Source: Ilex aquifolium (taxonomy: Eukaryota > Streptophyta > Magnoliopsida > Aquifoliales > Aquifoliaceae). From it: 64,000 bases of DNA. How positions within the stretch are numbered: position 1 is the stretch's first letter; the number at the start of each line of letters is the position of its first letter. The notes under the pieces were generated by a model. It searched no databases. It saw only the letters and a program-made list of their open reading frames with translations, and was not told the origin of the DNA. Location: NCBI GenBank assembly GCA_951799425.1, contig OX637398.1, forward strand, positions 21,214,270 through 21,278,269, read 5' to 3'. The position numbers were made by a program, and so were the translations under genes. Below, one piece after another: positions 8,048 through 52,700 of the stretch.

Positions 8048-8177
8048 GCTTTTGTTCTTGATCCGAAATGTGTACACCCAAGTGCAGGCGGTCAAGCTCT
8101 AGTAATAATCCGGTTTGAGTCCGGAGTTAAATCCACAGGGAACTTTTGTTGATATTTCTAAGGCAAGCAGTGGTAGA

Positions 8178-13300: not shown

Positions 13301-14897
13301 CCAACTCGTGTCTCGCCTCATCCTCCAGTGTAAGGCTAGCAAGCCAACCTATCAACTGTCCGTGCCATCTTGAGTCATATATGGCATGAGGTAAAGCATG
13401 GTGTTTCTCCCCCTGAAACTTGAAACAAACCCCGTCTGAGGTGTAGGCCGTAACCCTCTTGCGTTCGCAATCAATGACGACCTTATGTGCCGCCAACCAA
13501 TCCATCCCGAGTATGACATCGAACTCTGTCATTTCGATGACCCTAAGGTCAACGATAAGCTGGGTCCCTTCGATCTCCAACTCACAACCCCGACATATCT
13601 TGTCAATACAAACTCTGTCTCCTAGGGGTGAACTCACATACATGGGCTCTTTCAGAGTCTCGACCTCTAAGCCCAAGTCTCGTAAGCATGATGTAGCAAT
13701 AAAAGAATGTGATGCACCAGAATCAAATAATACTCTAGTCCATAATCTAGAGAGAAGAAATGTACCCTGAATTACCGACTGATCTGCCGGTAAAGTCTGT
13801 GGTGTGATGGCGAAGACTCGCCCTTGGGTCCCTGAAGTCCCTGCCTGAGAGCCCTGTCCCCGGCCTCGGCCCATGCCCTGGCCCATCTGGCCTGACTGCG
13901 GAGTCCCCGCTCGTGAAGTGGTAGGGGCTTGTGCTGCACCCTCAAACTGGACCTGATTTCCCCGGCCCATGGTGGGGTAGGGAGGAATGAAGTAGGTCTG
14001 TGGATGCCCCACTGATGACTGGGACTGAGATGCCCCATAGCTCTGGGATCCCTGCCTCTGAGGACACTCTCTCTTCAAGTGGCCTGGCTGGTGGCAATAG
14101 TAACATGTCCGTGGGCCTCCCTGTTGTGTGCCCCTAGAGTTCTTCCCACCCTGGGAAGATTGACCATAGCCTTGGCCTTGGCCCTGATAGCCTCGGCCCT
14201 GTCCCAGTGGTCCCTGTGGGGTAGAAATCCTCTGTCTCTTCCCCGAGCTAGTAGTGGAGGATTGTCCCTCCTTCTTCCTGTCCTTTGATCCGGCCTCTCG
14301 AATGCTCTTAGCGTCTTCTACCTCTCTCTCGATAGCCATGGCTGTCTCAACCATATCGTCAAAGTCGTGCAACCTGTGGCCAACAATCTTTCCACGGATG
14401 GATAACTTTAGGCCATTTTCAAACCTCCGCACCTTGGCCAAATCTGTGGCCACGTAGTCATCCGCAAAACGTGCCAATTCTGTGAACTTGGCCACGTACT
14501 GCATAACAGTCATCGCTCCTTGCTTCAAATTTAGAAATTCCTGGGCTTTGACTTCCCGAACAGCTGGTGGGAAATACTTTTTCATGAAGAGCTCTTGAAA
14601 CTCTTCCCATGTCATCCTCCCGATGTCTATCGGCTTTGCCCATGTCCACCATTGATGGGCTTCTCCCTCAAACTGGAAAGTGGCCAACCGTATCTTAGTG
14701 GCATCCGAAGTAATCTCCATTGCCTCTAAAATTTTGTCCACCTGTTGGAACCAATGGTCAGCTACCATCGGATCTCCTCCTCCTACAAAAGTTGGTGGGT
14801 TGTGGGACTTAAACTTCTGGAGGTTGTTCGAGCCTCCTTGGCCCACATTTGCACTGGTTTGCAAAAAGGTGGCAGCCATCGTGCCCATAGCCTCCAT
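10335..14897 (-). CDS. gag-pol polyprotein of the Tekay-like element
   Basis: One continuous frame encodes about 1520 residues. In order it shows a retrotransposon gag domain (about residues 30-140), a CCHC zinc knuckle [14 protein letters not shown] (about 264), an aspartic protease with DSGAS (about 390), reverse transcriptase with FVDDILIYS (about 720), RNase H starting VYCDASKDG (about 865), and an integrase HHCC finger (about 1085-1130). The integrase catalytic core follows (about 1150-1265), then a chromodomain-like tail ending in [19 protein letters not shown] (about 1430-1495). Gag and pol share one frame, as usual in Tekay/Del chromoviruses. The chosen start is the first methionine of the open frame; related sequence continues a little upstream. 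The element looks whole, but activity cannot be judged from sequence. Confidence 0.93.
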
Positions 14898-17418: not shown

Positions 17419-18702
17419 GTAGAGACCTATTGATTGTAACCCTTGAGATTTGCTGTGAGATATGAGTTTTCCTGGAGAGAATATAAGATTCTTTCCAAGA
17501 GGATTTTCTTAACAAAATAGGAGATAAGTGCTGATTAAAAAGAGTCACTCTTTAGTGCAAGGATCTGGACATGTAGTTAGTTATCCGGTTTGTCATAATT
17601 GTGCTTGATAACTCAATTAACTCTCGTGTCAACAGTAAGTTAATCGGAAGATGAAGATGGATTGTGAGAATTAAGAACATGATTCCGATGTCTTTCTAGA
17701 AGTTTACAAGAATTGTCTGTGCCGAGACTTAACCCGTCTACAAACAAGCAAGCGTTTCTACAAGACATCCAATCATGATATTAATATTCCATTCTTTAAA
17801 TGAAGTACAATAAGGGGGAGGATTGAAGGGTAGTCATGAGGATCTAGCGGGGGTACTTGCCTTGAACTGATGAGTCTTTCTATGCAAGAGTCATCCGTGT
17901 CATAGAAAGAGCTCACAGTTATACAAAGTACCTTAGATTTGCTAGATGCAATCAATCATCCAATAACAAGAAGAAATAAATGTTAAGTATAAAAACAATG
18001 CACAAATATGATTCCCGGATAACTTATACATATCTTTCTCCTCTTACTAAAGAGTGAATGAGAAACTACTCACTCTTCATGGCTTGGGTAAAGCTAGAAA
18101 AGTGAGTGATGCTCATCCCTCCAAGTAGAGAACTTAAAAGATAAAGTAACAACAAACACGAACCAATCTTTAACAAAGAATGGGTGAATCATGTTCCACC
18201 CTTCACGGCTTTGGTAAAGCTCTAGAAAAGTGGAAGAGTTTCACTCTTCTAAGAAAGAAAGAAGCTCAAGCAATGGAAGTGAAATGCATTAACAATAAAA
18301 GTAGAAGAAAGCTAGTCACATTTGGAGGGTGGCTTCCTCAACCAAGAATTGGAGGGTTGCTTGCTCAACCAAAAGATGAACTATCTCTCTTCTATGCATG
18401 TAAAATGAAAGCATAAGCTTAAGCATAAGCATAAAACTACTTTGATAACAAACAAGAGATGTTGGACTAGAGCCAAACTAATCTCTAAGATAAAAACTTT
18501 ATACAAGGAAAACAAGCTAAATCTACAATGAGAGTGGGAGTCTAAGCCTCCATCAACTTTCCCTACTTTGGCCCCCCTTTAGCTCTCCAACAAGGGGAGT
18601 ATTTCTAGGCAAGAGGAGGGGACAAGAGGAGGTGAAGGAATAGTGTTTGCCGCCCAAGTCCAAGTGAAAAGCCAACCACTCTGCTGCCAGTCTGTGGAGA
18701 AC

Positions 18703-21610: not shown

Positions 21611-22861
21611 CTTGATTTTTCTTGTTCTCTCTAAATCTGAATCTATGACCCCTTATACTCTTGCATATTATTTACATCCTGAAATATATATATTTAGCTT
21701 ATTGGAATCGTTACCCTGGATCTGATTTCCATTTTATATTAGATCTATGTGCAGAATCCTGAACAATTGCACTTTTTCTTTTGGGGTAAATTTACATTTT
21801 CGGGAATTTTAAAATTTGGAGCATTAATTTGATTCTTTGGTTTCTGGGTATTCATCTGTGTACTTTCCTAACAGTAACTAATCTGCTTCTACAATATTTG
21901 ATTTGTAATTTTTAATATTTATACATTGAATTTTTTATAATGCTATGAGCAAACATGCAATTATAAGTAGTTTAGTATATAGAATCAAATAAGTACAATT
22001 TACAACCTGTGATTACAATTTACAAAATGTTATAAGTAGTTGCTGTGAAGTGAGATGATGTTTTTGGGATGTTATTGTTATTATTGTTGCTGAGAATTTA
22101 CAACAGTTTAGGTGGAACCCGAACAAGAATAATCAAACAACAGGTGTGTTGGTTGGCAATGCCCTAATCCATAAACAATGAGAGAATCCTTTTGTTGGTA
22201 AACTTTTATAAGAGATTCTATTTGCAAGCTTTGGGGCGAAAATCACTCTTGAAAGCTCTAGAGAATTTGTTCTCCATTTTTTAATGTTTTGCTTAAGCTT
22301 TTCTAAGGAATTTGTTTTCTTTTTCCTTTAATGTCTTGATTGATTTAATTATTTTAATGAGTTGCAAACCGAGGGTATGTGTAATTTTATATTTGCATAG
22401 GAATACGCAGTGGTGGTTTACACCATCAGGGGTCTAATGCCAAATAAAGAGATGATTTCATTTTTATTTTTATTTTTGCTACAATTATGTAAAAGCATGG
22501 AATCATACAGATAATGACATTCCATGTTGATGACCTTTCTCATTGTTTATTTGCTGACCAATTTTCTCATTCTCGATTTTATATTGTAGTTATAGATGAT
22601 ATAGTTACAAACGACACACCTCTGCATTGCAATGTGCTTGCTTGTGCTTGGTTCTTTTATAAGAATTTCGTATCTACACAATCTGAAATGGGGGTAGGAC
22701 TTGAAAAGATGACAAGTGATTAGTAGACCAGCCAATCAATGTCTAGGATTAGCCTCTTTGAAATGGTTGCAAGGTTATCCATCATTTAGTCCTCTCAAGT
22801 CTCCACTATAAGCAAGATAATTGTGTATATGTGCGACGATCATCGACCCTATCAGTGTAAC

Positions 22862-24611
22862 TGATTAACCCTAATTAATGCAAAATGTAATTAAATTAAA
22901 AGGTTAATTGTGTAATTAAATAAAGTTAAACTAGTCAAAATAAATCTAATTAGGGTTAATGTGTGAATTAAGGATAATGCATTGAATGTTGTTCTTTTCA
23001 GGTTTTTATGCGTCAAAACGACGGGAGCCAATTATCAAAGCATGGAGAGCAACTTATCAAAGCATAGAGTGTAAATTATTAAAGCTCAAAATAAAGGGAG
23101 ATCAAAGTGTAAATCAAGATCTTCTTGATATTTGTAAATAAATATCTTTTAGGATATTTGTATTTAAATATCTTTTAAGATATTTAAATATATTTTAGGA
23201 TATTTGTAATTAAATATATTTTAGGATAAATATCTTTTAGGATATTTGTAATTAAATATATTTTAGGATATTTGTATTTAAATATCTTTTAAGATATTTA
23301 AATATATTTTAGGATATTTGTAATTTGGATGCCTATAAATACCCCCTTGGGGGCTTGTAATGGGCATCCTTCTCTTGTTTCATTTTTCTTGTAAAGAACA
23401 TTTCTTCCTAGTGGAAAACACTCCAAAGGTCTTGAATCTTTTTCTTGAATCATCTTTCAAGTATTATTGCTTTATTTATTTTCTTGAGTTATTGTTTTCT
23501 TTTTATTAGATCTTGGTTGTGAATTAAACACCAAGAAGTTGTTGTTTTCTTTTTATTAGATCTTGGTTGTGAATTAAACACCAAGAAATTATTGTTTTCT
23601 TTTATGTTTTTATTATATCTTGGTTGTGGATTAAACACCAAGAAGTTGTTGTTTTCTTTTATATATTATTATCTCTTGGTTGTGGATTAAACACCAAGTA
23701 TTTATTGCTTTCTTTTAATTTAAGTATTGTTTTCTTTTACTTCCATTGTTGGAGCTTCCTTCTTCCCCTTAGAGGAGTGAAACTCTTCCACTTTTCTAGA
23801 GCTTTACCAAAGCCGTGAAGGGTGGAACGTGATTCACTCATTCTTTGTCGAAGATCGGCTCCTTGTTTAGCTATTTTACTTTAAAGCATTTCACTTCTAG
23901 TGCTTGAGCATTTTACTTTGTAACACCTTTTGGGGATGAGTACCATTCATCATTCTAGCTTTACCATAGCTATGAAGGGTGAGTAGTCCTCATTCACTCT
24001 TTGGGAAGGGATGATAGATATGTAAAAGATTAATCCGGACATTATGTTTGTGTATCACCTTTATGCTTAAATGTTCTATACTCCACTTGATTTTTGGGTG
24101 ATTGAATGCACCTAGCAAAGTAAAGGTACTTTGTATAATCAACGGATCTTTCTATGATAAATGGATGACTCCTACATGGAAAGATCTATTGATTCAAGGC
24201 AAGTACCCTAACTAACTCTTCATGACAAACTTTCAATGTCCACCATTATTACACTTCATTCCTATCTTCCGATTAATTTGCCGTTGACACGGGAGTTAAT
24301 TGAGTTATAAAGCACAAACATAATGCACCGGACAATCAACTACATATTCTGATTTCCGAACCAAAGAGTGTTTGTTACATTTAATCATCTTATATTTTGT
24401 CTAGCAAAATACCCATTGGAAAGAATCTTACATTCTATCCAAAACTTTCCACAACTTCAAAATCATAATATTTCCAATTACAAGTCTTTCTCACTATTTA
24501 CTTCAAAGAACACCAACCATAGTTCCCTGAGGATTCGACTCTGGACTCAAACCAGATTATTACTCCAACTTGACCGCCTGCACTTGGGTGTACACATTTC
24601 GGATCAAGCCA
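22862..24611 (+). repeat. 5' LTR of the Athila-like element
   Basis: It starts TGATTAACCC and ends GGATCAAGCCA. A TATA box (TATAAATA) is at 23334-23341. Upstream is an array of AT-rich repeats (cores GGATATTTGTA and AAATATATTTTA, about 23128-23325). Downstream are four copies of a 24-base hairpin-forming unit starting near 23512, 23572, 23629 and 23675. Confidence 0.95.
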
Positions 24612-24618
24612 AGTTTTT

Positions 24619-24636
24619 TGGCGCCGTTGCCGGGGA
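24619..24636 (+). promoter_or_regulatory. Primer-binding site, Asp tRNA
   Basis: TGGCGCCGTTGCCGGGGA lies seven bases inside the 5' LTR. It is complementary to the 3' end of plant Asp tRNA, the typical primer of Athila elements. Confidence 0.93.
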
Positions 24637-24733
24637 ATCATAAAAGGTGTTTTTTTTTGAAAAAAGTGAAAAAAAAAAAAAAAAATCTCTCTTTTTGTTT
24701 ATATTTTTGCCTTATTGTGAATAATTTTGTTTT

Positions 24734-27700
24734 ATGACTGACACCAATCGCCTCTTTCAAAATTTGCCTGCTGAATCTTCTGGGTCTGTAAATCAACTTG
24801 AACCACCTTCACCCAAATCAGAAGCCGATTCTTGTAACTTCAATATGGCAAATATTGATAGGCAGTGTGAAGATCATGTGAGAGAGGGGGAAGTACCCAA
24901 CATTCGAACATTGCGAGATTACTTACATCCCACAAGGAATAGTGTCCCCTCTTGTTTTATTTTTCCTGAAAATGCTCCCCTCTTTACTGTAAAGCCGGGG
25001 ACAATGCAGTTATTGCCCGTGTTTCATGGATTGGATGCAGAAAATCCGTATCTGCATATCAAAGACTTCGAAGAAGTGTGTGGAACATTTCAAGACAATT
25101 CTGAATTGACAAAAATGAAATTGTTTTCTTTCTCTTTGAGGGATAAAGCCAAACAATGGTTACATTCTTTAAAATCTCTTTCAATCCCTAATTGGCAGGC
25201 TCTACAGAATGAATTTTTCAGAAAATTCTTTCCTCTGCACCGCACTAATACACTCAAAAGACAAATCATGAATTTTTCGGTCAAAGAAGGGGAAACTTTT
25301 TATCAAAGCTGGGAGAGATTCAAAGATCTTCTCCAATCTTGTCCACACCATGCTTTTGAAAATTGGACTTTGGCAGGTTTTTTCTATGATTCCTTGCCCA
25401 CTAGGTTACGACAGTTTGTCGCAATGATGGCTCAATGAGAGTTCATGGGAAAAAGTCCGGAGGAGGCATTCAATTTTTTTGATACCATATCTGACAGTTC
25501 TCAAATGTGGGACTCAGCATCTCCTACCACTGTAGAAGCCAAACCACCTACTTTCCAAGGGGGTAAGTATGTCTTGAGAGAAGATGATGATCTTAGAGCA
25601 AAAATGTCCACTTTGTCTCGAAAGCTTAAAGCTTTAGAGATGAAAAAGGTCCATCAAGTTGATGTTGTCCCTCCCACAGAACAAGTGTGTGGGATTTGTG
25701 CGCTAACAGGGCATCCTACTGGGGAATGCCCGACCATTCCGGCATTCAAAGAAGTTTTGTTGGAACAAACAAATGCCATTTCCAATTTCAACAAGCCTTA
25801 CTCCAACCCATACTCTGAAACATACAATCCAGGGTGGCGGAACCACCCAAATTTCAGTTGGAGAAACACACAACCAACCCCCATGAATCAGCAACAAGGT
25901 CCACAACAACCACCTCAAGGACCTCCACAATATCCTTATCAACAAGGGCCACCACATCCACCTCAAGTACCTCCACAATATCCTCCATATCAACCACCAC
26001 ACAAAAGGAGCCTTGAAGATACATTGAATCAATTCATGCAAACCCAAATGAGCTATAACAATAGTTCTACTCAGGCTTTTATTGATTTCAAGGCCCAGAC
26101 CACACAATCTTTTGAGGATCTCAAAGGCCACATTCAAAAGCTGACCCAGTCCATGAGCACACATGAGAAGGGAAAATTTCCTGCCCAACCAAAGCCTCCA
26201 CAAGGCCAATTTCAGGTGGGAAATCCATCAACTATGGAAACTCCACAAGACCAAGCCAAAACTGTCACCACATTGAGAAGTGGCAAAAAGATTGACAAGT
26301 CCATCAGAAACATGCTAATTCCAGACCCAAAACCAGACTCAATTCCAGCCAACCCATTAAGTGAGCCAGAACTTGCAACAAAAAATGACTGTGATCCCAT
26401 GATTGAACAAGAACCAGAGCCATCAAGGGAAGAAGAACCCTCGTGTTCTATTCCTGCTCCTTTCCCTCATAGACTCAAGAGCATACAGAAAGCAAACAAT
26501 CAGTCTGAAATTTACGAGCTTTTCAAGCAAGTAAAAATCAACATCCCACTTCTGGATGCAATCCAACAGGTTCCAGCTTATGCCAAGTTTCTAAAAGACT
26601 TGTGCACAGTCAAAAGAAGCCAAAATGTTCAAAAAAGAGCCTTTCTCACAGAGCAAGCCAGTGCCCTACTTCAACACAAAATCCCTTCAAAGTGCGAAGA
26701 TCCAGGGTGCCCCACTGTGTCATGTGTCATTGGAAATTTCAAAATTGAGCAAGCATTGTTAGACCTTGGAGCTAGTGTCAACTTGCTTCCTTTCTCTGTC
26801 TACCAGCAGTTGGGTTTAGGTGAACTGAAACCCACTTGCACCACACTCCAATTGGCCGATAGATCTGTAAAAATTGCTAGGGGTATTGTTGAAGATGTAC
26901 TTGTCCAAGTGGATAATTTTGTCTTCCCTGTAGACTTCATTGTTCTAGATACTCATCCAGAAGTTCATTCAGAAACTCCAATTCCTGTCATTCTTGGTCG
27001 ACCTTTTCTAGCAACCTCCAATGCACTAATCAATTGCAGGAATGGTATTATGAAATTGACTTTTGGGGATATGACTCTCGAAATGAACGTCTTTGACATT
27101 GCAAAACACCCAAGAGAGTACGAGGAGGTAGGAGAAATAAATTTCATTGAGTCATTGATACAAGCACATCTGAATGACTCATTCTGTGAGGATCTTAGTG
27201 AATCAACTTTGTCAAAATCTGACTCATCTGACTCTCTGGAACAAAACTCCATTGAGTGCCCTACCTTCAATGTGGGGACATGGACTCCTAAATTTGAAGA
27301 AATTTCATCAAGTGGTACAAAACCACTATCTTCAAGTGACAGGCCACCAAAGCCTGAACTGAAACCGCTCCCATCTGATCTCAAGTATGCATTTTTAGGT
27401 GAGGATAAATCTTACCCAGTGGTAATTTCTTCAAAAATCACAGACTTGCAAGAAGCTCAATTAATTGAAGTTCTTAAAAGTCACAAAAGCACCATTGGGT
27501 GGACCATCGCTGATTTGAAAGGTATAAGCCCGTTAATTTGTAATCATGCCATATACCTTGAAGATGACTCAAAACCCTCTCGTCAAATGCAGCGACGATT
27601 GAATCCTCACATGAAAGAGGTTGTGAGACTGGAAGTGCTCAAACTCCTGGATGCAGGGATAATTTTTCCTATCTCCGATAGCAAATGGGTTAGTCCAACC

Positions 27701-30334
27701 CAAGTTGTACCAAAGAAATCTGGAGTCACAGTAGTCAAAAATGATGCAAATGAACTCGTGCCAACACGAGTCGTCACAGGATGACGAATGTGCATTGACT
27801 ATCGAAAACTCAATCTGGTGACTAGAAAAGACCATTTTCCTCTTCCCTTCCTTGACCAAGTCCTCGAGAGAATAGCAGGCCATGAATTTTACTGTTTCCT
27901 GGATGGGTATTCCGGATACAATCAAATTGAGATAGCTCTGAATGACCAAGAAAAGACCACATTCACATGTCCATTTGGCACCTTTGCATTCAAAAGGATG
28001 CCATTCGGACTTTGTAACGCTCCTGCAACATTTCAAAGATGTATGCTGAGCTTGTTCAGTGACATGGTCGAAAATTTTTTGGAAATCTTCATGGATGATT
28101 TCTCGGTATATGGTGACTCATTTGATTTGTGTCTAGCTAACCTAGAAAAAGTTTTGATGAGATGCAAAGAGGCAAATCTGGTGCTTAACTGGGAGAAATG
28201 TCATTTCATGGTGAATCAAGGCATTGTCTTGGGTCACATTGTGTCGTCTGAAGGCATGAAAGTTGATAAAGCAAAAATTGATTTGATAGGAAATCTTCCT
28301 GCTCCTAGGGTTGTCAAGGATGTTCGATCATTCTTAGGTCATGCAGGATTCTACAGAAGGTTCATAAAAGACTTCAGCACCATAGCAAAATCTATGTGTC
28401 ATCTTTTGAGTCAGGACGTCATTTTCGACTGGAATGAAGCGTGCCAAAAATCCTTTGACAAACTCAAAGGCATGTTAATTTCTGCCCCAATAATGCAACC
28501 TCCTGACTGGACTCTACCCTTTGAATTGATGTGTGATGCTAGTGACTATGCTGTAGGTGCTGTTTTGGGACAAAGAAAAGATAAGAAGCCACATGTGATT
28601 TACTATGCAAGTAAAACTTTAAATGATGCCCAAATGAATTACTCAACAACTGAAAAGGAATTACTTGCTGTAGTATTTGCATTGGAAAAATTTCGATCTT
28701 ATCTTGTTGGTTCTTCTGTTACTGTATTTACTGACCATGCAGCACTGAAATTTTTGCTTACAAAAAAAGATGCCAAACCAAGACTCTTGAGATGAATCCT
28801 TTTGCTCCAAGAATTTGACTTAGTCATTAAGGACAAAAAGGGTGTGGAAAATGTGGTGGCAGATCATCTGTCGAGATTAACTTATGAATTTCATGAGGAT
28901 GGACTGCCAATCAATGAAAAATTCCCCGATGAACAACTATTCAGGATTGATGAGACCCCATGGTACGCTGATATTGCTAATTTCCTTGCTACCGGAATAC
29001 TTCCTCCATTTTTCACTCCCATGGACAAAAAGAAGTTTCTGAGGGAGGTCCGCAATTTCTTTTGGGAAGATCCCTACGTATTCAAGTACTGTAAGGATCA
29101 GATCATAAGACGTTGCATCCCCGCTCAAGAAAGTAGACAGGTAATAACATTTTGTCATTCAGAAGCATGCGGTGGTCATTTTTCATCTCGAAAAATCGCT
29201 GCAAAAATCTTGCAGTGTGGATTTTACTGGCCCACACTTTTCCAAGATGTCCATGCTTTTTGCGTAACTTGCGATAGATGTCAAAGGTTGGGAAACATTT
29301 CAAAAAGAAACATGATGCCCTTAAACCCAATTTTGGTGATCGAAATTTTTGACTGTTGGGGTATCGATTTTATGGGACCATTTCCCCCCTCCTTTGGCTA
29401 TCAATACATTTTAGTAGCCGTAGACTATGTATCCAAATGGGTTGAAGCAATTCCATGCCGAAATAATGATCATCAAACAGTGATCAAGTTTTTAAAAGAA
29501 AATATTTTATCTCGGTTTGGAATTTCAAAATCCATTATAAGTGATGGGGGTTCTCATTTTTGCAATCGTCCCTTCTGGAATTTAATGAAAAAATACTTGA
29601 TTTTTCACAAAATTGCAACCCCTTATCATCCACAGACCAGTGGACAAGCTGAGTTAGCTAATCGGGAGATTAAATTAATTTTGGAAAAAACGGTGAACCC
29701 AGATCGCAAAGATTGGTCATTAAGACTAACTGATGCGCTCTGGGCATACCGAACTGCTTTTAAAACAATTTTGGGCATGTCTCCCTATCGATTAGTCTAT
29801 GGAAAGCCATGTCACTTGCCTGTGGAATTGGAACATAGGGCATACTGGGCTATTAAAGCAATGAATTTTGACTTAGACAAGGCTGGACTGTCACGGAAGC
29901 TTCAGATTAATGAATTGGAGGAATTGAGAAATGAAGCATATGAAAATGCTAAGATTGCAAAAACCAGGATGAAAATTTTTCATGACAAGAACATAGTGCG
30001 AAAATCTTTTGAACCTGATCAAAAGGTTCTACTTTTCAATTCGAGACTTCGCCTATTTCCTAGTAAGTTGAAATCAAGATGGACTGGACCATACATTGTT
30101 AAAAAGGTATTTGAACATGGGACAGTGGAAGTGGAGAACCCATCAAACGGTAACATTTTTACCGTCAATGGTCAGCGATTAAAACCCTTTGTGGAGAATT
30201 TTGTCCAAAATGTGGAGACCATTTTTTTTATGGATCCAGAAAGTATCTCCGGAAATCACTCCGGAGATTACGCTTGCCGACACAAAAAAGGGTCGGGTCA
30301 ATCAGACACCCGACACGATGGACTGCCTTTATAA
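24734..30334 (+). pseudogene. Athila-type gag-pol, broken
   Basis: In order this region shows gag (matrix/capsid-like, about 24.98-25.43 kb), a proline/glutamine-rich stretch after a Cys/His knuckle CGICALTGHPTGEC (near 25.69 kb), and an aspartic protease-like domain (DLGASVNLLPFS, near 26.76 kb). Reverse transcriptase follows with the Athila signature WVSPTQVVPKKSG and FMDDFSVYG (about 27.6-28.3 kb), then RNase H (MCDASDYAVGAVLG, near 28.53 kb). Integrase has its HHCC finger and DDE core (about 29.1-29.9 kb). The reading is interrupted about three times, so this copy could not make a full polyprotein. Clade assignment rests on the polymerase motifs, the primer type and the long 3' region. 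Confidence 0.93.
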
Positions 30335-30480
30335 GGCCCCCATCGTTTTTTTTTTTTTTCCTTTTTCTTTTCCCCACCGCCTTTACTCTTTTCTTTTCTT
30401 TTTCTTCTTCTTTTTCTTCTCTTTTCTTCTTCTTCTCCACTGCATCTGGTCTTCTGTACCACGATCCAACCCATAACAGT
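30328..30480 (+). promoter_or_regulatory. TATA-like site and pyrimidine-rich leader before cassette A
   Basis: TTTATAAGG at 30328-30336 sits at the very end of integrase. It is followed by about 100 bases of almost pure C/T with a few breaks, a common plant core promoter and leader layout. A similar arrangement (CTTTATTAGG near 31961, then C/T-rich DNA) precedes cassette B. Whether either is used is unknown. Confidence 0.4.
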
Positions 30481-30483
30481 ACC

Positions 30484-30630
30484 ATGTCTGCATTTTTCGA
30501 TGACCCTATCCTCCTTCTCATGATCTACATTTGTTTGTATTATTTACTTATGGTTGTTCTTCTTCGGGCCGCACTGATGATCAAGGGTTTTTGTCCCAAT
30601 GAAAACCCAGACCACCCCAAAGATGCTTAA
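30484..30630 (+). CDS. Small hydrophobic peptide, cassette A
   Basis: A 48-residue frame starts MSAFFDDP. It is followed by an uninterrupted hydrophobic segment (about residues 9-32, including IYICLYYLL) and a short hydrophilic tail with several prolines and acidic residues. This predicts one membrane segment. Cassette B has a peptide of the same size, the same DDP start motif, the same ICLY core and a similar tail, although the surrounding DNA has diverged. That argues it is a real gene rather than chance. Small single-span proteins are common in plant RNA viruses (triple gene block 3, closterovirus p6), but no specific family was recognised. The frame is open further upstream; this ATG was chosen because it aligns with cassette B. 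Confidence 0.6.
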   Translation: MSAFFDDPILLLMIYICLYYLLMVVLLRAALMIKGFCPNENPDHPKDA

Positions 30631-30743
30631 TCTCTGTTTTTTTTGGTATAGGTCATCGGCGATTGAACAGATCTCCACAGTTAACTGCGTATTCAAGCTC
30701 TACAAACCGAAAAACTCGAAACATTGGGGACAATGTTCAGTCT

Positions 30744-30756
30744 AGGTTGGGGGGTG
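30744..30756 (+). promoter_or_regulatory. Internal copy of the polypurine tract
   Basis: AGGTTGGGGGGTG here is identical over 13 bases to the tract that adjoins the 3' LTR (35091-35103). It is preceded by GGGGACAATGTTCAG, a phrase typical of the region just before the 3' LTR in Athila and Tat elements. It could be a relic of an older 3' end or a central plus-strand primer. Confidence 0.6.
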
Positions 30757-30975
30757 AGATCTACAGTTTACAGTAGTTGATCTGCAGTTTACAGTAGTTG
30801 ATCTGCGCAGGTTGAACCCGTAAAATTTTCTGTAAATTTTTTTTTTTTTTTTTTATTGTTGTATCTGTTCAGATTATGTACCTTGTATTAATGATAATAT
30901 CTGTGGATCAGTTTTGATCGTCTTTGTGACTGGAAGACTTAAAAGAACCAGATAGTGGGTTATAAAGTAGCAATC

Positions 30976-31386
30976 ATGGATGTAAATCTTTTTTGGTTTA
31001 GTCTAGGAGTCCTACGTACTTTTCCATCTGATGTACATACCATGATCATGAGAAAAGCAAGATTAGTAAGGAAGACTGAAATCAAAGAAAAACAAGCGAA
31101 ACCCCTCTGTGGCCGAAGCAGTTATTCTAAACGTCGTCGTGCTACACGACTTGGTGCCTGTAAACAGTGTGGCAGATACTTTCATGAGAAAAGATACAAC
31201 AAATGTTCTGAACCAATTTCCGGTCGCGCAACCGATCGATTAAACTGGATAGTGAATGGGCTGAGTAAGGATTACCCTGATACGCCATGCTATTCCGGTA
31301 CTGTGCTTAACCGATTTGTGAGAGAGGAAGTTGGGAGAGTTACTGGTTGTCCATTTTACACAGATACGGAGGGGGAATCGGATTGA
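30976..31386 (+). CDS. Cys-rich basic protein resembling carlavirus NABP, copy A
   Basis: A frame of about 136 residues starts MDVNLFWFSLGVLRTFPSDV. In order it has a hydrophobic N-terminus, a basic stretch, the motif CGRSSYSKRRRATRLG, a zinc-finger-like CX2CX4HX6C, then PISGRATDRLNWIVNGL and YPDTP, ending in an acidic tail. The order GRSxY, RRRA, CxxC, C, PxIS, a V/L-rich helix, G and P matches the nucleic-acid-binding proteins of carlaviruses and relatives (Pfam Viral_NABP, as remembered). Those proteins bind nucleic acid and have been linked to silencing suppression or host gene regulation. The ATG was chosen because it aligns with MD in copy B; a non-ATG extension is open upstream. Copy B is about 69% identical. 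Confidence 0.75.
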   Translation: MDVNLFWFSLGVLRTFPSDVHTMIMRKARLVRKTEIKEKQAKPLCGRSSYSKRRRATRLGACKQCGRYFHEKRYNKCSEPISGRATDRLNWIVNGLSKDYPDTPCYSGTVLNRFVREEVGRVTGCPFYTDTEGESD

Positions 31387-31499
31387 CCTCTGTGGAAAAG
31401 TGTACTGAGGTTGGGAATGAGAGCTGAAGGTCCGAGTCTGTAAATTTTATTTTATTTTATTTTATTTTATTTTTTTTATGTTCTGTACAAACTCTTTTG

Positions 31500-31960
31500 A
31501 CTAAAATGAAAACATGGATTCCTTTTAGTATGCATAATGTAGTGTAGAAAAAAAAAAAAAAAAAAAAATTTTTTTTGATTCGACGTTCGAACGTTACAAC
31601 ACGTTTGAATGTTTTTGCTAAAATCCTTCTACAATAGTGTACAATTGTTTTTATTTAATGTTATTTTTAATGCATGTCACTTTCTTTTGTTGTATAGTTT
31701 TGTTGTTCCTATTTTCAGATATCGGTGCCAGGTCAAAACTCAAGGGCAATGTGTTCTCTTACCCTACTCATTTTTATTACTATGCACCATTATTGAGCCT
31801 GCCGACACTGCCGAAAGTAAAGTTAGAAAAAAGAAAAAAAAAAAGGGGGCGGGCCTCCCACTGCCTTTCTTCTTCTTTTTTCTTTTCTTCTGCCTGCCAG
31901 CTCCTGCCGACACTTTCTTATCTTAAAAGGTGGAAAAAAAAAAAAAAATCTGAGGAATGC
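31500..31960 (+). other. Spacer between the two accessory cassettes
   Basis: No gene is supported. The spacer contains A and T homopolymers, a palindrome pair GTTCGAAC (31585) / GTTTGAAT (31603) with 18 bp spacing, and two occurrences of CTGCCGACACT (near 31800 and 31900). These echo a CTTGCCGACAC segment near 30278 before cassette A, so they mark the repeated unit border. Confidence 0.5.
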
Positions 31961-32119
31961 CTTTATTAGGCCTTCCACCTTTTTCTTTTTCTTCCACCAT
32001 CACCGGTGTTGGTTCCCCCTTTTCTCTTTCCCTTCTCTTCTTCTCTTTCTTTTTCTTCTCTTCTTCTTCGTCGTCGTTCTTTCTGTTCTCTGTAAAAACA
32101 ACTCACCCCCTGTAAATCC

Positions 32120-32251
32120 ATGACCATATACGCCGACGATCCAGTCTTTTGTTTAATAATTTGCCTTATATGTTTGTATTTGTACCTGGGTGCTCTTTGT
32201 GTTCTCACACTTAGGATGAGGAGTTTCCAGAGAAACCCAGATATTCCTTGA
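32120..32251 (+). CDS. Small hydrophobic peptide, cassette B
   Basis: A 43-residue frame starts MTIYADDP, then a hydrophobic segment (about residues 9-31, including LICLYLYLGAL), then a short basic/polar tail (RMRSFQRNPDIP). It is collinear with the 48-residue peptide of cassette A: DDP at residues 6-8, ICLY in the centre of the membrane segment, and a tail with N and P residues. It is followed by a possible splice acceptor (TTTGTTTGTAG near 32280). Function unknown. Its conservation between the copies is the main reason to call it. Confidence 0.55.
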   Translation: MTIYADDPVFCLIICLICLYLYLGALCVLTLRMRSFQRNPDIP

Positions 32252-32823
32252 GTTGAGTAATTGTTGTATTTTGTTTGTAGGTTTCGGCAGATGAACAGAT
32301 CTGTACCTTACAACCTCATTTTCATGCGTCATACACTTTCACTACTGCAACCTTATCTCCACTAGCCCACTAGTGCTAGTGTTGTAAGTATTGCTTGTTT
32401 GTAATTTCATTTATATATATATTTGAAATTTGATATCTACAGCTTGTGATTCTCATGGCTATTTTTCTTTATAAAATTCCTTGTGAATTTGCTATGCCCT
32501 CCAATGACTATGCTGTAATTGTTGTTAGAGTAAGATCTGATAATTTGCCAAATAATCCTCCTCAATCCTATGTATTTTGGGTTTATTCCTTCTTCGTTAA
32601 TTTGTTTGTTTCATCTTAAATCTTCTTCCTTCCGCTTGTATTTTGGTATACTTTCTCTAATTTCGTATTTGTAATTTTAGTTTTAGATTTGAAAAAAAAA
32701 AAAAAAAATTTGTTTATTTTTTCTGGATCGCGTTTTTTTAGTATTTGTACCTGTATTTCATGATCACATCGGATGCAGCTTCAACTGTCTTTGTGACTGG
32801 CAGACGTTAAAAAACCAGATAGA

Positions 32824-33249
32824 ATGTCTTTAGTCTTAGCAAGCATGGATCCTAAACTTTTTTGGTTTAGTCTAGGAGTTCTACGCATTTTCCCATCTGA
32901 TGTGCATGCTGTGATAATGAGAAAAGCAAGGGATGTGAGAAAAATTGAGATCCGAGAGAAACAACAACAACCATTGTGTGGCAGAAGCAATTTTGCTAAA
33001 CATCGTCGTTCCAAACGACTGGGTGCTTGTTACCATTGTGGCAGGATATTTCATATGAAAAAACATAATCAGTGTTCTGAACCAATTTCGGGTCGTGCAA
33101 CCGATCGATTAAACTGGATAGTGTATGGGCTGAGTAAGGATTATCCTGACACGCCATCTTATGCCAGTCCGGGACTTACAAGTTATGTGCGACAAGAAGT
33201 TGGAAGGGTCACTGATAATGACATAGATCCAAGCGATGACTCGGATTAG
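32824..33249 (+). CDS. Cys-rich basic protein resembling carlavirus NABP, copy B
   Basis: A 141-residue frame aligns with copy A over almost its whole length (about 69% identity). The stretch SEPISGRATDRLNWIV and the following GLSKDYPDTP are nearly invariant. The finger is CYHCGRIFH then C, again CX2CX4HX6C, and the basic motif is KHRRSKRLG. Within the most conserved stretch four of five nucleotide differences are silent, which suggests selection on the protein before this insertion. The sequence just upstream (TCTTTGTGACTGG... then ACCAGATAG) is also shared, and aligned CAG acceptor-like sites lie 40-60 bases before both starts, fitting expression from a spliced RNA as known for Athila env-like genes. 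Confidence 0.75.
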   Translation: MSLVLASMDPKLFWFSLGVLRIFPSDVHAVIMRKARDVRKIEIREKQQQPLCGRSNFAKHRRSKRLGACYHCGRIFHMKKHNQCSEPISGRATDRLNWIVYGLSKDYPDTPSYASPGLTSYVRQEVGRVTDNDIDPSDDSD

Positions 33250-33360
33250 ATTTTGACTATAAAGACAAAGCTGTGGAAAAATGTGTTTTGGAATGAAGGT
33301 TAAGGGTCTGAACTCTTTTGTAAAATAGTTTTGTACAAAGTCTTGTTGTTGAAATAAAAA

Positions 33361-33625
33361 TGTGGGCCGAGTAAGGAACGTCCCGAACTACCAACTAACA
33401 GTGTAGGTAGGGATTTGATCCTGAGACGCCATAAATTTTCAAGTTCAATTTGTGCATTTTATCTTCTTTCAATTTTCATAGATAAATGAGTATGTGGGCT
33501 GAGTAAGGAATGTCCTAAAATGCCAACCTGTAGTGTGGGTAGGGATTTTATCCTGAGACGCCATAGTTTTTCAAGTTTAATTGGTGCATCTAGTCTTCTT
33601 TCAATTTTCATAGATAAATGAGTAT
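33361..33625 (+). repeat. 132 bp tandem repeat with decayed NABP-gene pieces
   Basis: Two copies begin at 33361 and 33493 with TGTGGGCCGAGTAAGG / TGTGGGCTGAGTAAGG. That start resembles the coding DNA for NGLSKDYPD in the NABP-like genes, and a second block (ATCCTGAGACGCCAT) resembles the DNA for YPDTP. These look like extra decayed fragments of the accessory gene. Confidence 0.6.
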
Positions 33626-35090
33626 GTTTATAATTTTGAATTTTATTTCTTCTTCTTTAAAAAAAAAAAAAAAAAAAAAACTCACTTCCTTGAAAAATGG
33701 TATTTTCTCTATGCTTAAATGTCAAATGTATATTGCTATTTGTTATTCTTAAGGTACAGAATGACCAGACTCGAAAATAGAATTAGTATATAACCGACAT
33801 TCCATGAAAAAACCTAACATTACCAGTGGAGATGATAAAGAATACCATGGTAAGTTTTGAGCCTTATCATACTTTTGAGAGATAATTAACATTTATTCAA
33901 GTAAGGTCTTTCACTCTCTATTTTTGAATAATCTCATTAAATTTGCTTTGATTGACGCAACTAAGGTAATATGTTGACATATCCCTCAAGAAATTTGTTC
34001 ATACGACACATACATGTTCACATACTTGAGAAAGGATCTTAGGCCATCTTTGATTTGATATTGAGCCTTAGCCATTTGTTCTACAAAATTATTTCCCTAG
34101 TCAGCCATGTTTGAGCCTTCAATGTATGATTTCTTCTTTGATAAACCCAAATGTTTACCAAGCCACAAGAAAACATACTGGACACACCATTGCTATCTAA
34201 TTTTCTTGCACACTCTTATAAATCAATATGACATAGAAATGCAAAGAAATGGAAATGCAAAGAAATGGGGAAAACTGTGGAGACTACTTTACGATGACAA
34301 GGAAAAAAAAAAAAAAACGTTAGAATTAGGTGTGCTACACTACATAAACAGAAGATAGCTTTTGAAAACCTCTGACGTCATTTCGTTAGCCACTGACCTT
34401 TGGCCATGCTACAACCTATGAAAAGCCCTAATTGATCTCAAGTTTGTTTTTACATGTGTGTGTTGTTAATCAAAATTGGGGTATGGTAAATAGTATTTCT
34501 TTAAATTGCATCAATATTCTTTCATGAGATTATGCCAAACATGATTAGTTTGTTTCCTTAAACTTCACTCCCTTCCTAATTGTGCATGTGATTTTTCGAT
34601 TGGCCACCTTCTGATCACATGCCCCGTGAGAGACAAGTCACTATAATCGGAGTGAATTTTTGCTGAGAGCATTCTACGAGAGGTTTGTGAAATCGAAGCT
34701 ATCCATGGAAGGTAGTAAAGTGGAGTGTTTGTTATATAACAATTCTTGTTGCTAGAATGATCATTCTTACTACATAGGGAATTTCAAATACTAATATAAC
34801 AAGTGTTTATTTTTGCATATATTACGTACCAATGACAGAGAAGTGTTTTATTTTGCTAAAAAAAAAAAAAAAAAATTCGGCGTCTCAGCTATCATGGTGC
34901 TAATGCATATACACATTTTTTTCAAATGGAGTTTGTAGGTAGCTTCACTGAAAACCTTCACGAGACAAAACTCGTCCACTAGGAATCACCTAGGGGTTTA
35001 ACGGCTTATTGCATATGCTAAATGCAATCGTGTTATCTACGAAAGTGATTTTGTTATGCTGTTATTTATTACTAGGGACTAGTAATGTTT
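33626..35090 (+). other. 3' non-coding region of the Athila-like element
   Basis: About 1.5 kb without a convincing frame, containing long A runs. A GGCGTCTCAG segment near 34880 is the inverse of the GAGACGCC block in the 132 bp repeats. Long non-coding DNA before the 3' LTR is usual for Athila elements. Confidence 0.6.
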
Positions 35091-35103
35091 AGGTTGGGGG
35101 GTG
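35091..35103 (+). promoter_or_regulatory. Polypurine tract of the Athila-like element
   Basis: AGGTTGGGGGGTG directly precedes the 3' LTR, which starts TGATTAACCC at 35104. This is the expected plus-strand primer site. An identical 13-base copy exists internally at 30744-30756. Confidence 0.88.
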
Positions 35104-36825
35104 TGATTAACCCTAATTAATGCAAAATGAAATTAAATTAAAAGGTCAATTGTGTAATTAAATAAAGTTAAACTAGTCAAAATAAATCTAATTAGGGTTA
35201 ATGTGTGAATTAAGGATAATGCATTGAATGTTGTTCTTTTCAGGTTTTTATGCGTCAAAACGACGGGAGCCAATTATCAAAGCATGGAGAACAACTTATC
35301 AAAGCATAGGGTGTAAATTATTAAAGCTCAAAACAAAGGGAGATCAAAGTGTAAATCAAGATCTTCTTGATATTTGTAAATAAATATCTTTTAGGATATT
35401 TGTATTTAAATATCTTTTAAGATATTTAAATATATTTTAGGATATTTGTAATTAAATATATTTTAGGATAAATATCTTTTAGGATATTTGTAATTAAATA
35501 TATTTTAGGATATTTATATTTAAATATCTTTTAAGATATTTAAATATATTTTAGGATATTTGTAATTTGGATGCCTATAAATACCCCCCTTGGGGGCTTG
35601 TAATGGGCATCCTTCTCTTGTTTCATTTTTCTTGTAAAGAACATTTCTTCCTAGTGGAAAACACTCCAAAGGTCTTGAATCATCTTTCAAGTATTATTGC
35701 TTTATTTATTTTCTTTTTATTAGATCTTGGTTGTGAATTAAACACCAAGAAGTTGTTGTTTTCTTTTTATTAGATCTTGGTTGTGAATTAAACACCAAGA
35801 AGTTATTGTTTTCTTTTATGTTTTTATTATATATTGGTTGTGGATTAAACACCAAGAAGTTGTTGTTTTCTTTTATATATTATCATCTCTTGGTTGTGGA
35901 TTAAACACCAAGTATTTATTGCTTTCTTTTAATTTAAGTATTGTTTTCTTTTACTTCCATTGTTGGAGCTTCCTTCTTCCCCTTAGAGGAGTGAAACTCT
36001 TCCACTTTTCTAGAGCTTTACCAAAGCCGTGAAGGGTGGAACGTGATTCACTCATTCTTTGTCGAAGATCGGCTCCTTGTTTAGCTATTTTACTTTAAAG
36101 CATTTCACTTCTAGTGCTTGAGCATTTTACTTTGTAACACCTTTTGGGGATGAGTACCATTCATCATTCTAGCTTTACCATAGCTATGAAGGGTGAGTAG
36201 TCCTCATTCACTCTTTGGGAAGGGATGATAGATATGTAAAAGATTAATCCGGACATTATGTTTGTGTATCACCTTTATGCTTAAATGTTCTATACTCCAC
36301 TTGATTTTTGGGTGATTGAATGCACCTAGCAAAGTAAAGATACTTTGTATAATCAACGGATCTTTCTATGATAAATGGATGACTCCTACATGGAAAGATC
36401 CATTGATTCAAGGCAAGTACCCTAACTAACTTTTCATGACAAACTTTCAATGTCCACCATTATTGCACTTCATTCCTATCTTCCGATTAATTTGCCGTTG
36501 ACACGAGAGTTAATTGAGTTATAAAGCACAAACATAATGCACCGGACAATCAACTACATATTCTGATTCCCGAACCAAATAGTGTTTGTTACATTTAATC
36601 ATCTTATATTTTGTCTAGCAAAATACCCATTGGAAAGAATCTTACATTCTATCCAAAACTTCCCACAACTTCAAAATCATAATATTTCCAATTACAAGTC
36701 TTTCTCACTATTTACTTCAAAGAACACCAACCATAGTTCCCTGAGGATTCGACTCTGGACTCAAACCAGATTATTACTACAACTTGACCGCCTGCACTTG
36801 GGTGTACACATTTCGGATCAAGCCA
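35104..36825 (+). repeat. 3' LTR of the Athila-like element
   Basis: This 1722 bp copy of the 5' LTR has about 18 substitutions by eye. It is shorter mainly because the repeat array after the TATA box (TATA at 35576-35583) is contracted. It ends AGCCA before the target duplication GTAAC. Confidence 0.95.
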
Positions 36826-37111
36826 GTAACCTAAAGACTGGTATAGGGCAAAAGTTCTCCAAAAAATGAAAAATGAACTATTTATGCTTAGAGGGAAAAA
36901 ATATACATGGCTTGTACAAAAATATAAATAGATTTATGTGACCATTTCAACCTTTTATTATTCCACTTTCTTATATTTGGTTGATAGAAATGCCTTTTAT
37001 TAATTTTTTCTCATAAATCATCTAAACATTTTCACATGGTTGAGATCAGCTTGGAAACTAAATGGCCACCTCCTTTATTTTTATATTATAAACTAATTGA
37101 GAGTTTTTTAG

Positions 37112-49728: not shown

Positions 49729-52700
49729 TTAATTTGCCTCCGATCTTGCTGTGTGAGTTGAATGATTTGTCTTTATATGTCTGAGTCGTAAATTCCTGAT
49801 TTGCCTCCTGTCTTGTAACATTAAGAGTCTAGTAGTAACTGGAAGGCTGTCTGAAGACGAGAAAGTGGATGAGGCTCTAGCCAAAATACCCTGGTTAGCC
49901 AATGAATCTGTTACTGTATTACCTTCACGATAAGAATGCTGAATTTGAAAATCCAAACTATTAAGAATAGAGCGAATTTGGTGAATAATACTCCAAAATT
50001 TCCAAGAAGCCTGACTGTTATGCTTAACCATGTCCACTAGTAGTTTAGAGTCAGACTCAATGAGAAATGAGTACTCCATCAATCCAAAATCCCTTATCAT
50101 TATTAATCCATCCAATAGGGTCCTCATCTCTGCCTCCATACTAGAACAAAGACCATAAAAATAATATCCTGCCCGAACAAGTTGCCCTGTAGAATTTTGT
50201 AGAATAACTCCTCCTCCTGACATCCCCGGATTCCCTTTCGATGCTCCATCAATATTCAGTTTAAGCATACCCTCCTCTGGAAATCTCCAAGCTATCCATT
50301 TAACTTGCCGTGAAATTGTCCCAAGTCTCTTCACATTAATGGCATCTAACAAAATCAAATCATGTTCTGTATCCCCTGCTTTAGGACTAATATTATGTAT
50401 CTGTAGTTTCCACAAGTGTATTATGGACTTCAACAGAGAAGAAGAATGTAACTTCTTATCTTCAAAAAGTCTTCTACATCTTTCCCTCCATAGCTGCCAG
50501 TAGACCAACAGAGATAAACCTCTCAACAAAGAATGAGTTATAGATGATTTCCTATAAATTCTGACAAACCTCATAAACCTTGTGAGAGGCCCTTCATGAG
50601 AAATAAGATGAATGCCCAAAAGATCTGATAACCCTTCCCAAACAGAAATTGCATATTTACAATTAATGAATATATGAGCAGCCGATTCACAATTATTAGA
50701 GCAAAAAACACACCTACTAGCCAAAACAACCCCTATAGACTGAAATGTAGAATCTATAGGTAAGGCCTTATGCAATAATTTCCAACCAATGAGCTGTGCA
50801 CTTGGAGGTGCAGCCTGTTTCCATATATTAGAAGCCTGAACATTTTGTTGACCTACACTTCGTATTAGGTTCCATGCTGATTTAATGGTGAAATTTCCTT
50901 TTGTAGTACGTTGCCAAATAAGCTGATCCCCCCTCTCTGTCAATTCAATTTGCAAAGCAACCACCTCCTGTATAAGTTGTTCATCCATATGTTGTCTCAC
51001 CATATTAAAGTCCCATCTGCCTTGAACCAGTACCTGAGAAAGACAGGGAAAATTCAAAGGAGCAGACGAAGCTCTATGAATTAGTGGTCCTAATTATGAC
51101 CAGTTATCACACCAGAAATCCACCTCATCCCCTCTACCTACCAACTTCAACGAATTATTGACAACCTCCTCAAACCACGGATATAGCATTCTATGAACCT
51201 TAGAATAACTTTGTCTTGGACTCCTCAACAAATGGCCCTTATTACAATACTTATCCACAAAGAATTTAGCCCACAAAGACTTCCCATTAAGCAAACCCCA
51301 TACTTGCTTCATTCTAAATGCTTTTTGTACCTCTTCAAACTTACAAAATCCTAAACCTCCTTCCTCTTTGGGCATGGTAATATTCTTCCATGAACACCAG
51401 TGCCTCTTTCTGGTATTTGCTTTTCCAGACCATAGGAAAGAGGCCATGATTGAATTCATTCTTGAAATAATACCTTTAGGTAGACTTAATGAGGTTAACA
51501 AATGTATTGGCATGGAATTTAAAACTGACTGTATCAATACTATCCTCCCCATATTTGACAGGAGTTTAGTATACCAACCCTGTAGCCTTGCTTGAAACTT
51601 CTGGAGTAGATCCTCAAAATAGATAAGTTTAGCTCTTCCCTTAATAATTGGACATCCTAAATAGGATAGAGGACATTGTTTAAGAGGAATATTTGCCACC
51701 CGCGAGAGCATATTCTGCCTAACATGCGGAATTTTAGCTGAGCAATACAATGAACTCTTTCCTTTATTCACCTTTTGTCCAGACGCCTCTTCATACCTTC
51801 CAACAAACTTCAACAAATTTATCATTGACTATTTATTCCCTTTTAAAAAGACAAGTGTATCATCTGCAAAGAGCAAGTGACTAAGAAATCTTGCCCCTCT
51901 TCCTCTGTGAAAGTGTTTAATAAGCCCTTTGTGAAAGCTCTCCACCATTCCCCTGCTTAGTGCCTCCTCTGCCAGAATAAATAGACTAGGAGAAATTGGG
52001 TCACCTTGTCTAAGGCCCCTTGTCTTCTGAAAAAAACCATGCCTAACCCCATTGATAGTAAAAGACACAAACTGATTATGAAGACAATTACTAATGACAT
52101 TCTGGAATGCAGCAGAAAAACCAAAACTACTTAAAGTCTTCAGTAAAAAATCCCACTCTAACCTATCAAATGCTTTCATCATATCCAATTTGACAATGAT
52201 ATTACCTGCTTCCACTTTCCTATCCAATTCATTCACCATAAACTGAGCCATAGCGATGCTGTCCCCAATATTCCTCCCTTTGACAAATCCTTGCTGCTCC
52301 TCTGAAATAATCTTAGGAAGAACTTCCCCAAGTCTAGTAGCTAAAATCTTCGTGAAAACCTTATACACAAAATTGCCTAAGCTTATCGGCCTAAACTCAT
52401 CAAAGGAAACTGGGTTTTCCCTCTTCGGTATAAGGGATAACAATGTAGCATTCACAGATCTGGGAATTTCTCCCCCTTGAATAAAAAAATTAGCCGCAAA
52501 TAACAAATCCATTTTAATTACCTCCCATGCAGTCTGGAAAAATTGTCCTGAAAAACCATCTGGTCCCGATGCGCTATGAATAGACATCGCAAAAACAGTC
52601 TCCTTAAGCTCTTCTAACCTAACATTGGATAGCAGTAAAGCATTGTCCTCTTCAGTCACTATCCTAGGGATAACATTAAAAAGCTCCTCCTCCATAACAT

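Follow-up and report, generated by a model that had tools for sequence, protein, structure and literature searches.

The window analysed here, a stretch of 64,000 nucleotides from Ilex aquifolium (C8:21214270-21278269 of a genome searched as 800 Mb in 103 contigs), contains one complete Ty3/Gypsy long terminal repeat (LTR) element, probably of the Athila type, at 22862-36825. This element carries two genes, NABP1 and NABP2, whose predicted products resemble the nucleic-acid-binding proteins (NABPs) of plant flexiviruses. A sequence-only reading had placed two intact frames between the integrase and the 3' LTR, and both are indeed open there. The 37-nt upstream motif, the elements without pol, the copy number and the relatives in other plants, all treated below, are additions to that reading. 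The features of the element are as follows.

22857-22861 (5' copy) and 36826-36830 (3' copy): target site duplication GTAAC, 5 bp
22862-24611, plus strand: 5' LTR, 1750 bp
24618-24636, plus strand: primer-binding site (PBS)
24642-24650, plus strand: candidate 5' splice donor AAAAG/GTGT, just 3' of the PBS
24734-30334, plus strand: gag-pol frame, with gag, a C-x2-C-x4-H-x4-C knuckle, protease, reverse transcriptase, RNase H and integrase (Pfam)
28802-30334: integrase, within the gag-pol frame and 5' of both NABP genes
30484-30630, plus strand: small open reading frame 1 (sORF1), candidate coding frame of 48 amino acids with a hydrophobic stretch
30919-30955, plus strand: 37-nt motif before NABP1, 3' splice-site-like and pseudoknot-like
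30976-31386, plus strand: NABP1, Viral_NABP family, 136 amino acids
32120-32251, plus strand: sORF2, candidate coding frame of 43 amino acids, counterpart of sORF1
32786-32822, plus strand: 37-nt motif before NABP2
32824-33249, plus strand: NABP2, Viral_NABP family, 141 amino acids
35087-35103, plus strand: polypurine tract (PPT)
35104-36825, plus strand: 3' LTR, 1722 bp

Homology of NABP2 begins at its second ATG (32845), which gives a protein of 134 amino acids. Both proteins are basic, as had been proposed, with 26 lysines and arginines against 15 aspartates and glutamates in NABP1 and 23 against 16 in NABP2 (from 32845). The finger had been written as CxxC...C; its CxxC stands, and the actual pattern in both proteins is C-x2-C-x4-H-x6-C, with histidine as the third ligand. 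The profile search against Pfam Viral_NABP (PF05515) puts both above the cut-off of 23 bits (NABP1 41.1 bits, 2.5e-10; NABP2 48.4 bits, 1.5e-12), and both also exceed the cut-off of 20.9 bits for Carla_C4 (PF01623; 26.6 bits, 5.9e-6 and 24.2 bits, 3.3e-5), which supports their membership in the Viral_NABP family. Since the PF05515 match spans residues 9-117 of NABP1 and 5-113 of NABP2, it takes in an N-terminal part that is absent from vitivirus proteins. All other Pfam matches of the two proteins lie below cut-off, the Athila ORF-1 family PF03078 is not among them, NCBIfam gives nothing above cut-off, a PDB sequence search gives weak matches, mostly to ribosomal proteins (E 0.077 and above), and a PDB fold search gives three matches, none below E 3; none of these searches thus points to another zinc-finger family as a better fit. 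Beside the NABPs, neither a coat-protein nor a movement-protein gene of viral type was seen.

Kinship with the viral proteins is also visible in iterated searches. A single-sequence search found ten proteins, each with both Pfam domains, and a profile made from these and the two window NABPs reaches 29 proteins at E<=1, including those of Grapevine virus A (2.9e-7), Grapevine virus H (1.5e-6) and, marginally, Carrot vitivirus 1 (1.8e-2). In a 17-sequence alignment that includes these three viruses, G53, S55, K59, R61, R62 and C72 are invariant and A58 and C69 are at least 90% conserved; the vitivirus fingers have CxC spacing, as opposed to CxxC in the element NABPs. The named viruses among the matches listed are all vitiviruses, in searches that reach only relatives sharing exact words. 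A first structure model (23 sequences; predicted local distance difference test, pLDDT, 54) was set aside without being searched, and a second (81 sequences) has a low-confidence pLDDT of 65. When the latter was compared with viral models (BFVD) by Foldseek, 35 matches were obtained at E<=10, of which only one is at E<=0.001. The best is to the RNA silencing suppressor of Glyptostrobus pensilis prunevirus (29% identity in 127 aligned columns; target length 130 amino acids), and the next named matches are to Garlic virus X, Citrus yellow vein clearing virus, a carlavirus (in fourth place) and Cherry mottle leaf virus. Where a name does not itself give the genus or family we have presumed it; on that footing the best 25 matches (E<=1) comprise 20 named alpha- or betaflexiviruses, four unnamed proteins and one closterovirus p23, and, of the 35 matches, the remaining ten are either unrelated or without a name. 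Three BFVD matches are annotated as RNA silencing suppressors. Because the template modelling (TM) scores of the best 25 are low (0.30-0.43 on the query) and their root-mean-square deviations mostly high, the fold search backs relatedness through the sequence-structure letters more than through superposition, and thus less firmly than the profile results do. The word "carlavirus" in the sequence-only reading appears too narrow, the best fold match being to a prunevirus and the named viruses found by sequence being vitiviruses. NABP relatives were not found in phage records, and none was confirmed among 31 pattern matches in IMG/VR contigs.

Relatives are also numerous on the plant side. A mixed profile of 12 proteins, including the three viruses and the protein P0023, reaches 733 proteins at E<=1, and among the matches listed (the best 120 of the 733) are plant genome proteins from Populus, Orobanche, Rhamnella and Xanthoceras; since P0023 itself belongs to that plant group, this result is an extension and not an independent test. 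P0023 and the proteins from P0030 onwards (P0050 from Populus, P0094 from Orobanche, P0101 from Rhamnella, P0107 from Xanthoceras) form a large plant NABP-like group, many of whose members have 145-182 amino acids and C-x2-C-x4-C-x3-C fingers. A further NABP type from other samples is represented by P0015, P0016, P0017, P0019, P0020, P0026, P0027 and P0029, of which P0026, P0027 and P0029 look decayed by eye, as expected of genomic repeats. Re-scanned individually, P0050, P0094 and P0015 are above the Viral_NABP cut-off, P0107 is barely above it, and P0101 is below those of both PF05515 and PF01623. Neither type could be placed among the sets of this genome: the best identity of the P0015-type is 47% and that of the Populus-type 28-36%, the weak matches of the latter being mostly to the genome's own NABPs (the best has 28% identity with three stops). 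These low identities indicate that both types probably come from other plants.

As to direction, capture from a flexivirus lineage into the retrotransposon seems to us the likelier. The opposite course, from the retrotransposon or its host plant to the flexiviruses, appears rather unlikely; in its favour is the large plant-side diversity that follows from the presence of the family in the Populus, Orobanche, Rhamnella and Xanthoceras records. In a tree of 47 proteins, the viral sequences (three), the P0015-type (four rows) and the Populus-type (23 rows) each make up one side of a branch. The tree is midpoint-rooted for drawing, has long branches between viruses and plant groups and includes only three viral sequences, so it decides nothing for either direction.

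The genome holds many related copies; all copy samples described below are similarity-ranked, not random, and four places were fetched twice (L029-L032 are L033-L036). With NABP2 as query, the best 150 of 4,093 first-look candidates were scored, and all are 99-100% identical without internal stops, as is expected when only the best 150 are scored. A second type, found with P0011 as query (best 150 of 4,067 candidates scored), is 73-86% identical to P0011 and defines a P0011-like subfamily with one NABP per element, against two in the subfamily of the window.

NABP1 and NABP2 are a tandem duplication under purifying selection. Their DNA sequences agree at 76% of 402 aligned bases, differ at 28, 22 and 47 first, second and third codon positions, respectively, and have a ratio of nonsynonymous to synonymous divergence (dN/dS) of 0.28 (NG86) or 0.22 (maximum likelihood, ML). 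Among ten chosen copies, dN/dS is 0.07-0.41 in 44 of the 45 pairs, synonymous divergence (dS) being undefined in the other. In the fetched sample NABP1 is open in 20/20 copies and NABP2 in 30/31, and among 65 P0011-like frames 34 are open, 25 are stop-free over the stretch read, five have an early stop and one has an altered start. The order integrase-sORF1-NABP1-sORF2-NABP2 is found in 18 of the 20 fetched places (exceptions, L011 and L016). In the tree NABP1 and NABP2 fall into separate groups (support 99/99 and 91/41), and since each group includes proteins from other samples, which could be of the same species, an old duplication is suggested. sORF1 and sORF2 share the pattern DDP ... hydrophobic ... 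NPD, and 18 of 19 sORF1 copies and 26 of 28 sORF2 copies retain the start and the frame; despite this their coding status is uncertain, because comparison of the two gives a high dN/dS (0.53 by NG86, 0.77 by ML), a sign of weak constraint. They were considered as small membrane proteins of viral movement type, and no such Pfam match lies above cut-off.

The P0011-like subfamily includes elements without pol. Twenty of its places were fetched, most with 4-5 kb of upstream sequence: 11 have a PBS, gag and NABP and no integrase, six have an integrase followed after a few hundred bases by the NABP, two (L036 and L050) have an NABP without gag or pol, and L045 showed neither. L033 reads LTR-PBS-gag-NABP-PPT-LTR, the PPT and the start of the 3' LTR lying downstream (L095); that LTR was not seen to its end. 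In nine of the 11 pol-less places, chosen for being open, the gag frames have 751-913 codons, and eight of these nine encode the Gag zinc knuckle; of the other two gags, that of L040 is broken into pieces and that of L043 was left out. The dN/dS of pol-less gag is 0.12-0.49 (15 pairs from six of the 11). L033 and L046 have a gag dS of 0.07 and an NABP dS of 0.80, and such near-identical gags beside distant NABPs show an exchange of modules between lineages. L036 was considered as a retrotransposed spliced RNA and rejected; it is likelier a deletion derivative, since the sequence upstream of the putative splice acceptor (see below) is retained. Separately, L050 (C15:22447000-22456500) is a tandem array of NABP-bearing units with a period of about 4.21 kb, and at C12:1122170-1129002 NABP2 copies are spaced about 2.13 kb apart; both arrays are satellite-like expansions of element pieces.

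A 37-nt motif precedes the NABP in 116 of 117 copies (from 92 loci and the element; the distinct number is smaller, four places being doubled), and the sole miss is a copy with only 3 nt of upstream sequence. The motif ends 20-80 nt 5' of the ATG at which homology begins, and in NABP2 an earlier in-frame ATG (32824) stands one base after it. Between representatives the motif is 84-100% identical, against 30-38% for the complete upstream 60-nt stretches, and the window genes are separated from P0011-like copies by a dS of 1.16-2.94 (one value undefined). A 25-mer of the motif with up to two mismatches occurs at 1,544 + 1,536 (about 3,080) places in the genome and at none in a reversed control, a count of 25-mer places irrespective of whether an NABP lies 3' of them. 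One IUPAC form of the motif, searched in viral contigs, gave no match.

The motif fits a 3' splice site. A putative acceptor AG lies in its U-rich stretch, and the base at -3 is C in 83 copies, A in 26, T in seven and G in none (n=116). A donor-like GTTA[AC]GGTAATT lies directly 3' of the PBS in 11 of the 12 P0011-like places in which a PBS was found, all 11 of them pol-less, L033 being the place that differs; at the corresponding point the leader of the window element has AAAAGGTGTT.

What is said here of the function, expression and origin of the NABPs is inferred. The NABP would be made from a spliced subgenomic mRNA, with the donor just 3' of the PBS and the acceptor within the 37-nt motif, which may additionally fold as a pseudoknot. 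The protein would bind the RNA of its own element through the basic zinc-finger region and help that RNA or its Gag particle to survive; it might, for instance, protect the RNA against small-RNA-directed silencing, or chaperone or package it. It would act mainly in cis, like Gag; this mode seems the most likely because pol-less elements, which need pol in trans, keep gag and NABP. A role in silencing is plausible by analogy, since p12 of the carlavirus CVB, a relative, is described in the text consulted (PMC7588395) as a silencing suppressor and nuclear transcription activator that lowers small interfering RNA (siRNA). To this reading as a whole, in which splicing yields an accessory mRNA and the protein made from it binds the RNA of its own element and works largely in cis, we give slightly better than an even chance. 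Several points weigh against it. The G of the putative acceptor AG is missing in three of the 116 motifs, and the donor-like site of the window, AAAAG/GTGT, is weak, weaker than the GTAATT of the sister subfamily. The gag frames compared had been picked because they were open, and the pol-less elements may have regained their NABP by recombination, which the exchange of modules makes possible, rather than have kept it by selection. A nucleocapsid role would be redundant, because Gag already has a zinc knuckle. Finally, confidence is low for both structure models (pLDDT 54 and 65), and the TM-scores of the viral fold matches are low.

The same viral parallel would also suit a diffusible RNA silencing suppressor that binds small RNAs or acts in the nucleus on host silencing genes and so helps all related elements, in line with the possible silencing-related role raised by the sequence-only reading. 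Three of the BFVD fold matches carry that annotation, and carlavirus p12 both suppresses silencing and lowers siRNA in the account given by PMC7588395. A trans factor that can be shared would, however, perhaps have degenerated in pol-less elements, just as pol has, and most of the fetched ones have an open NABP next to gag; we regard this alternative as rather improbable.

A different view of the motif is that it is an exoribonuclease-resistant RNA that yields an NABP RNA by decay, and not a splice acceptor. An H-type pseudoknot model (stems 1-5/17-21 and 12-15/30-33) pairs 94.9% of cells, against 25-44% in slid positions, and its covariation score, of a kind that the relatedness of motif copies inflates, is matched by two of 500 shuffles. 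Moreover, the motif has GACGUUAAA in common with the coremin motif GUCCGAAGACGUUAAACUAC of Xrn1-resistant RNAs, and the likeness to these extends, as far as the part of PMC10520033 used here describes them, to a GUC ... GACGUUAAA core in a small hairpin context. The support for the pseudoknot is nevertheless thin: its paired-cell level is matched by 10 of 500 shuffles (shuffle mean 94.1%), its two-sided pair changes by 233 and its further pair types by 203 of 500; pair 15-30 is mismatched in six of 44 distinct motifs; and Fisher tests on distinct motifs give p values of 0.036 and 0.083 for the two covarying pairs. The motif as a pseudoknot is therefore weakly supported on sequence comparison. 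The element motif also differs from coremin in its proposed pseudoknot topology, and it fails as a canonical coremin on the published rules for loop, spacer and second hairpin. Compared by eye with those rules (PMC10520033, in part), the loop of its first hairpin is not YG..AD (YGAD or YGNNAD). In the NABP2 motif the spacer carries A's in place of the C and U of coremin, and according to the same source changing these to A's abolished stalling. No constant inverted repeat, and thus no constant second hairpin, was seen by eye 3' of the motif, where a few copies, e.g. L033, could pair. Rfam gives nothing at the motif, its matches elsewhere being below gathering scores. Set against the putative splice acceptor, decay-derived expression seems to us quite unlikely.

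That the frames are env-like genes of the usual kind, or remnants without function, and resemble a zinc-finger protein by chance is highly improbable in view of the two Pfam models above cut-off, the viral profile matches, the purifying selection and the conserved upstream motif.

The element itself is a young insertion, judging by the low divergence of its LTRs (Kimura two-parameter distance 0.0105; 14 transitions and four transversions over 1721 aligned sites). Its PBS we take to be of the tRNA-Asp type. The ends of the open reading frames place in-frame stops in gag-pol at 25436-25438, 27782-27784 and 28793-28795; this copy is therefore defective, with both NABPs and both sORFs still open. 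Pfam finds the reverse transcriptase, RNase H, Integrase_H2C2 and rve domains and reports no additional RNase H, which is given as a mark of the Tat lineage in the consulted part of PMC6317226; the Athila-type assignment, made from the Ty3/Gypsy domain order, is provisional. A 132-bp tandem duplication (83% identical) lies just 3' of NABP2, at 33352-33615. Elsewhere in the window, an open Ty3/Gypsy polyprotein of 1520 amino acids (SH3_Tf2-1, reverse transcriptase, integrase) at 10338-14897 on the minus strand is flanked by fragments of an LTR related to that of the NABP element (8057-8151 and 17473-18312, both minus strand) and is probably a nested insertion. Frames of a non-LTR retrotransposon (Exo_endo_phos, RVT_1, zf-RVT, RVT_3) are found at 49732-53568, minus strand.

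What the extra genes of plant LTR elements do is mostly unexplained, and the present extra gene has viral relatives; antisense extra genes are stated in PMC7264820 to lack similarity to viruses. Since the viral relative CVB p12 has measured suppressor activity (PMC7588395, in part), the NABPs offer a testable idea of how an abundant element might evade silencing or handle its RNA. They may also be an instance of plant RNA viruses and retrotransposons exchanging genes, and the pol-less gag and NABP elements may separate functions needed in cis from those supplied in trans. More broadly, and tentatively, this whole plant LTR lineage might carry a flexivirus-type module in which a structured 37-nt expression signal is joined to a gene for an RNA-binding, silencing-linked protein; the module would serve Gag as an indispensable partner in cis and be kept through pol loss, duplication and module swapping, so that elements and RNA viruses would both share and exchange one counter-defence or RNA-handling toolkit; we consider this possible rather than probable.

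An NABP-like gene in an LTR retrotransposon is apparently unreported: among the papers listed in searches of open-licence full texts none describes one, and no description occurs in the consulted parts of PMC7264820, PMC11728184, PMC2714080, PMC3136472, PMC6317226 and PMC9289625. A survey of 121 angiosperm genomes (PMC9289625) has neither "nabp" nor "carla" in the main text as consulted. Athila Ty3/Gypsy elements with extra 3' open reading frames (env-like, PF03078) share with the present element its domain order, long LTRs and large 3' region; the extra gene here is instead a homologue of viral NABPs. In barley Bagy-2, as recounted in part of PMC7264820, a 3' env-like frame is expressed from a spliced mRNA, the route proposed here from sequence signals for a different product, the NABP. 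The cucumber sequence CsFRLS1 (citrus leaf blotch virus-like; PMC3136472, in part) is likewise a flexivirus-related chromosomal sequence near retrotransposon-like sequence, and differs in being related to a viral 5' half and lying beside, not as a gene within, an amplified LTR element. In orchids, Ty3/Gypsy elements bearing an AlkB m6A (N6-methyladenosine) demethylase domain (PMC9289625, in part) also carry an RNA-directed protein domain that occurs in Alpha- and Betaflexiviridae, although it is a domain other than NABP. With the Viral_NABP and Carla_C4 proteins of alpha- and betaflexiviruses themselves, the element NABPs share a match to the C-terminal half of the PF05515 profile, a basic block of the GRS-x-[YF]-A-K-[RH]-R-R type, a CxxC finger and a length of about 130-140 amino acids, as in several of the viral matches, and they differ in the histidine of the third ligand position and in the location of the gene within an LTR retrotransposon, where in this subfamily it is present twice.

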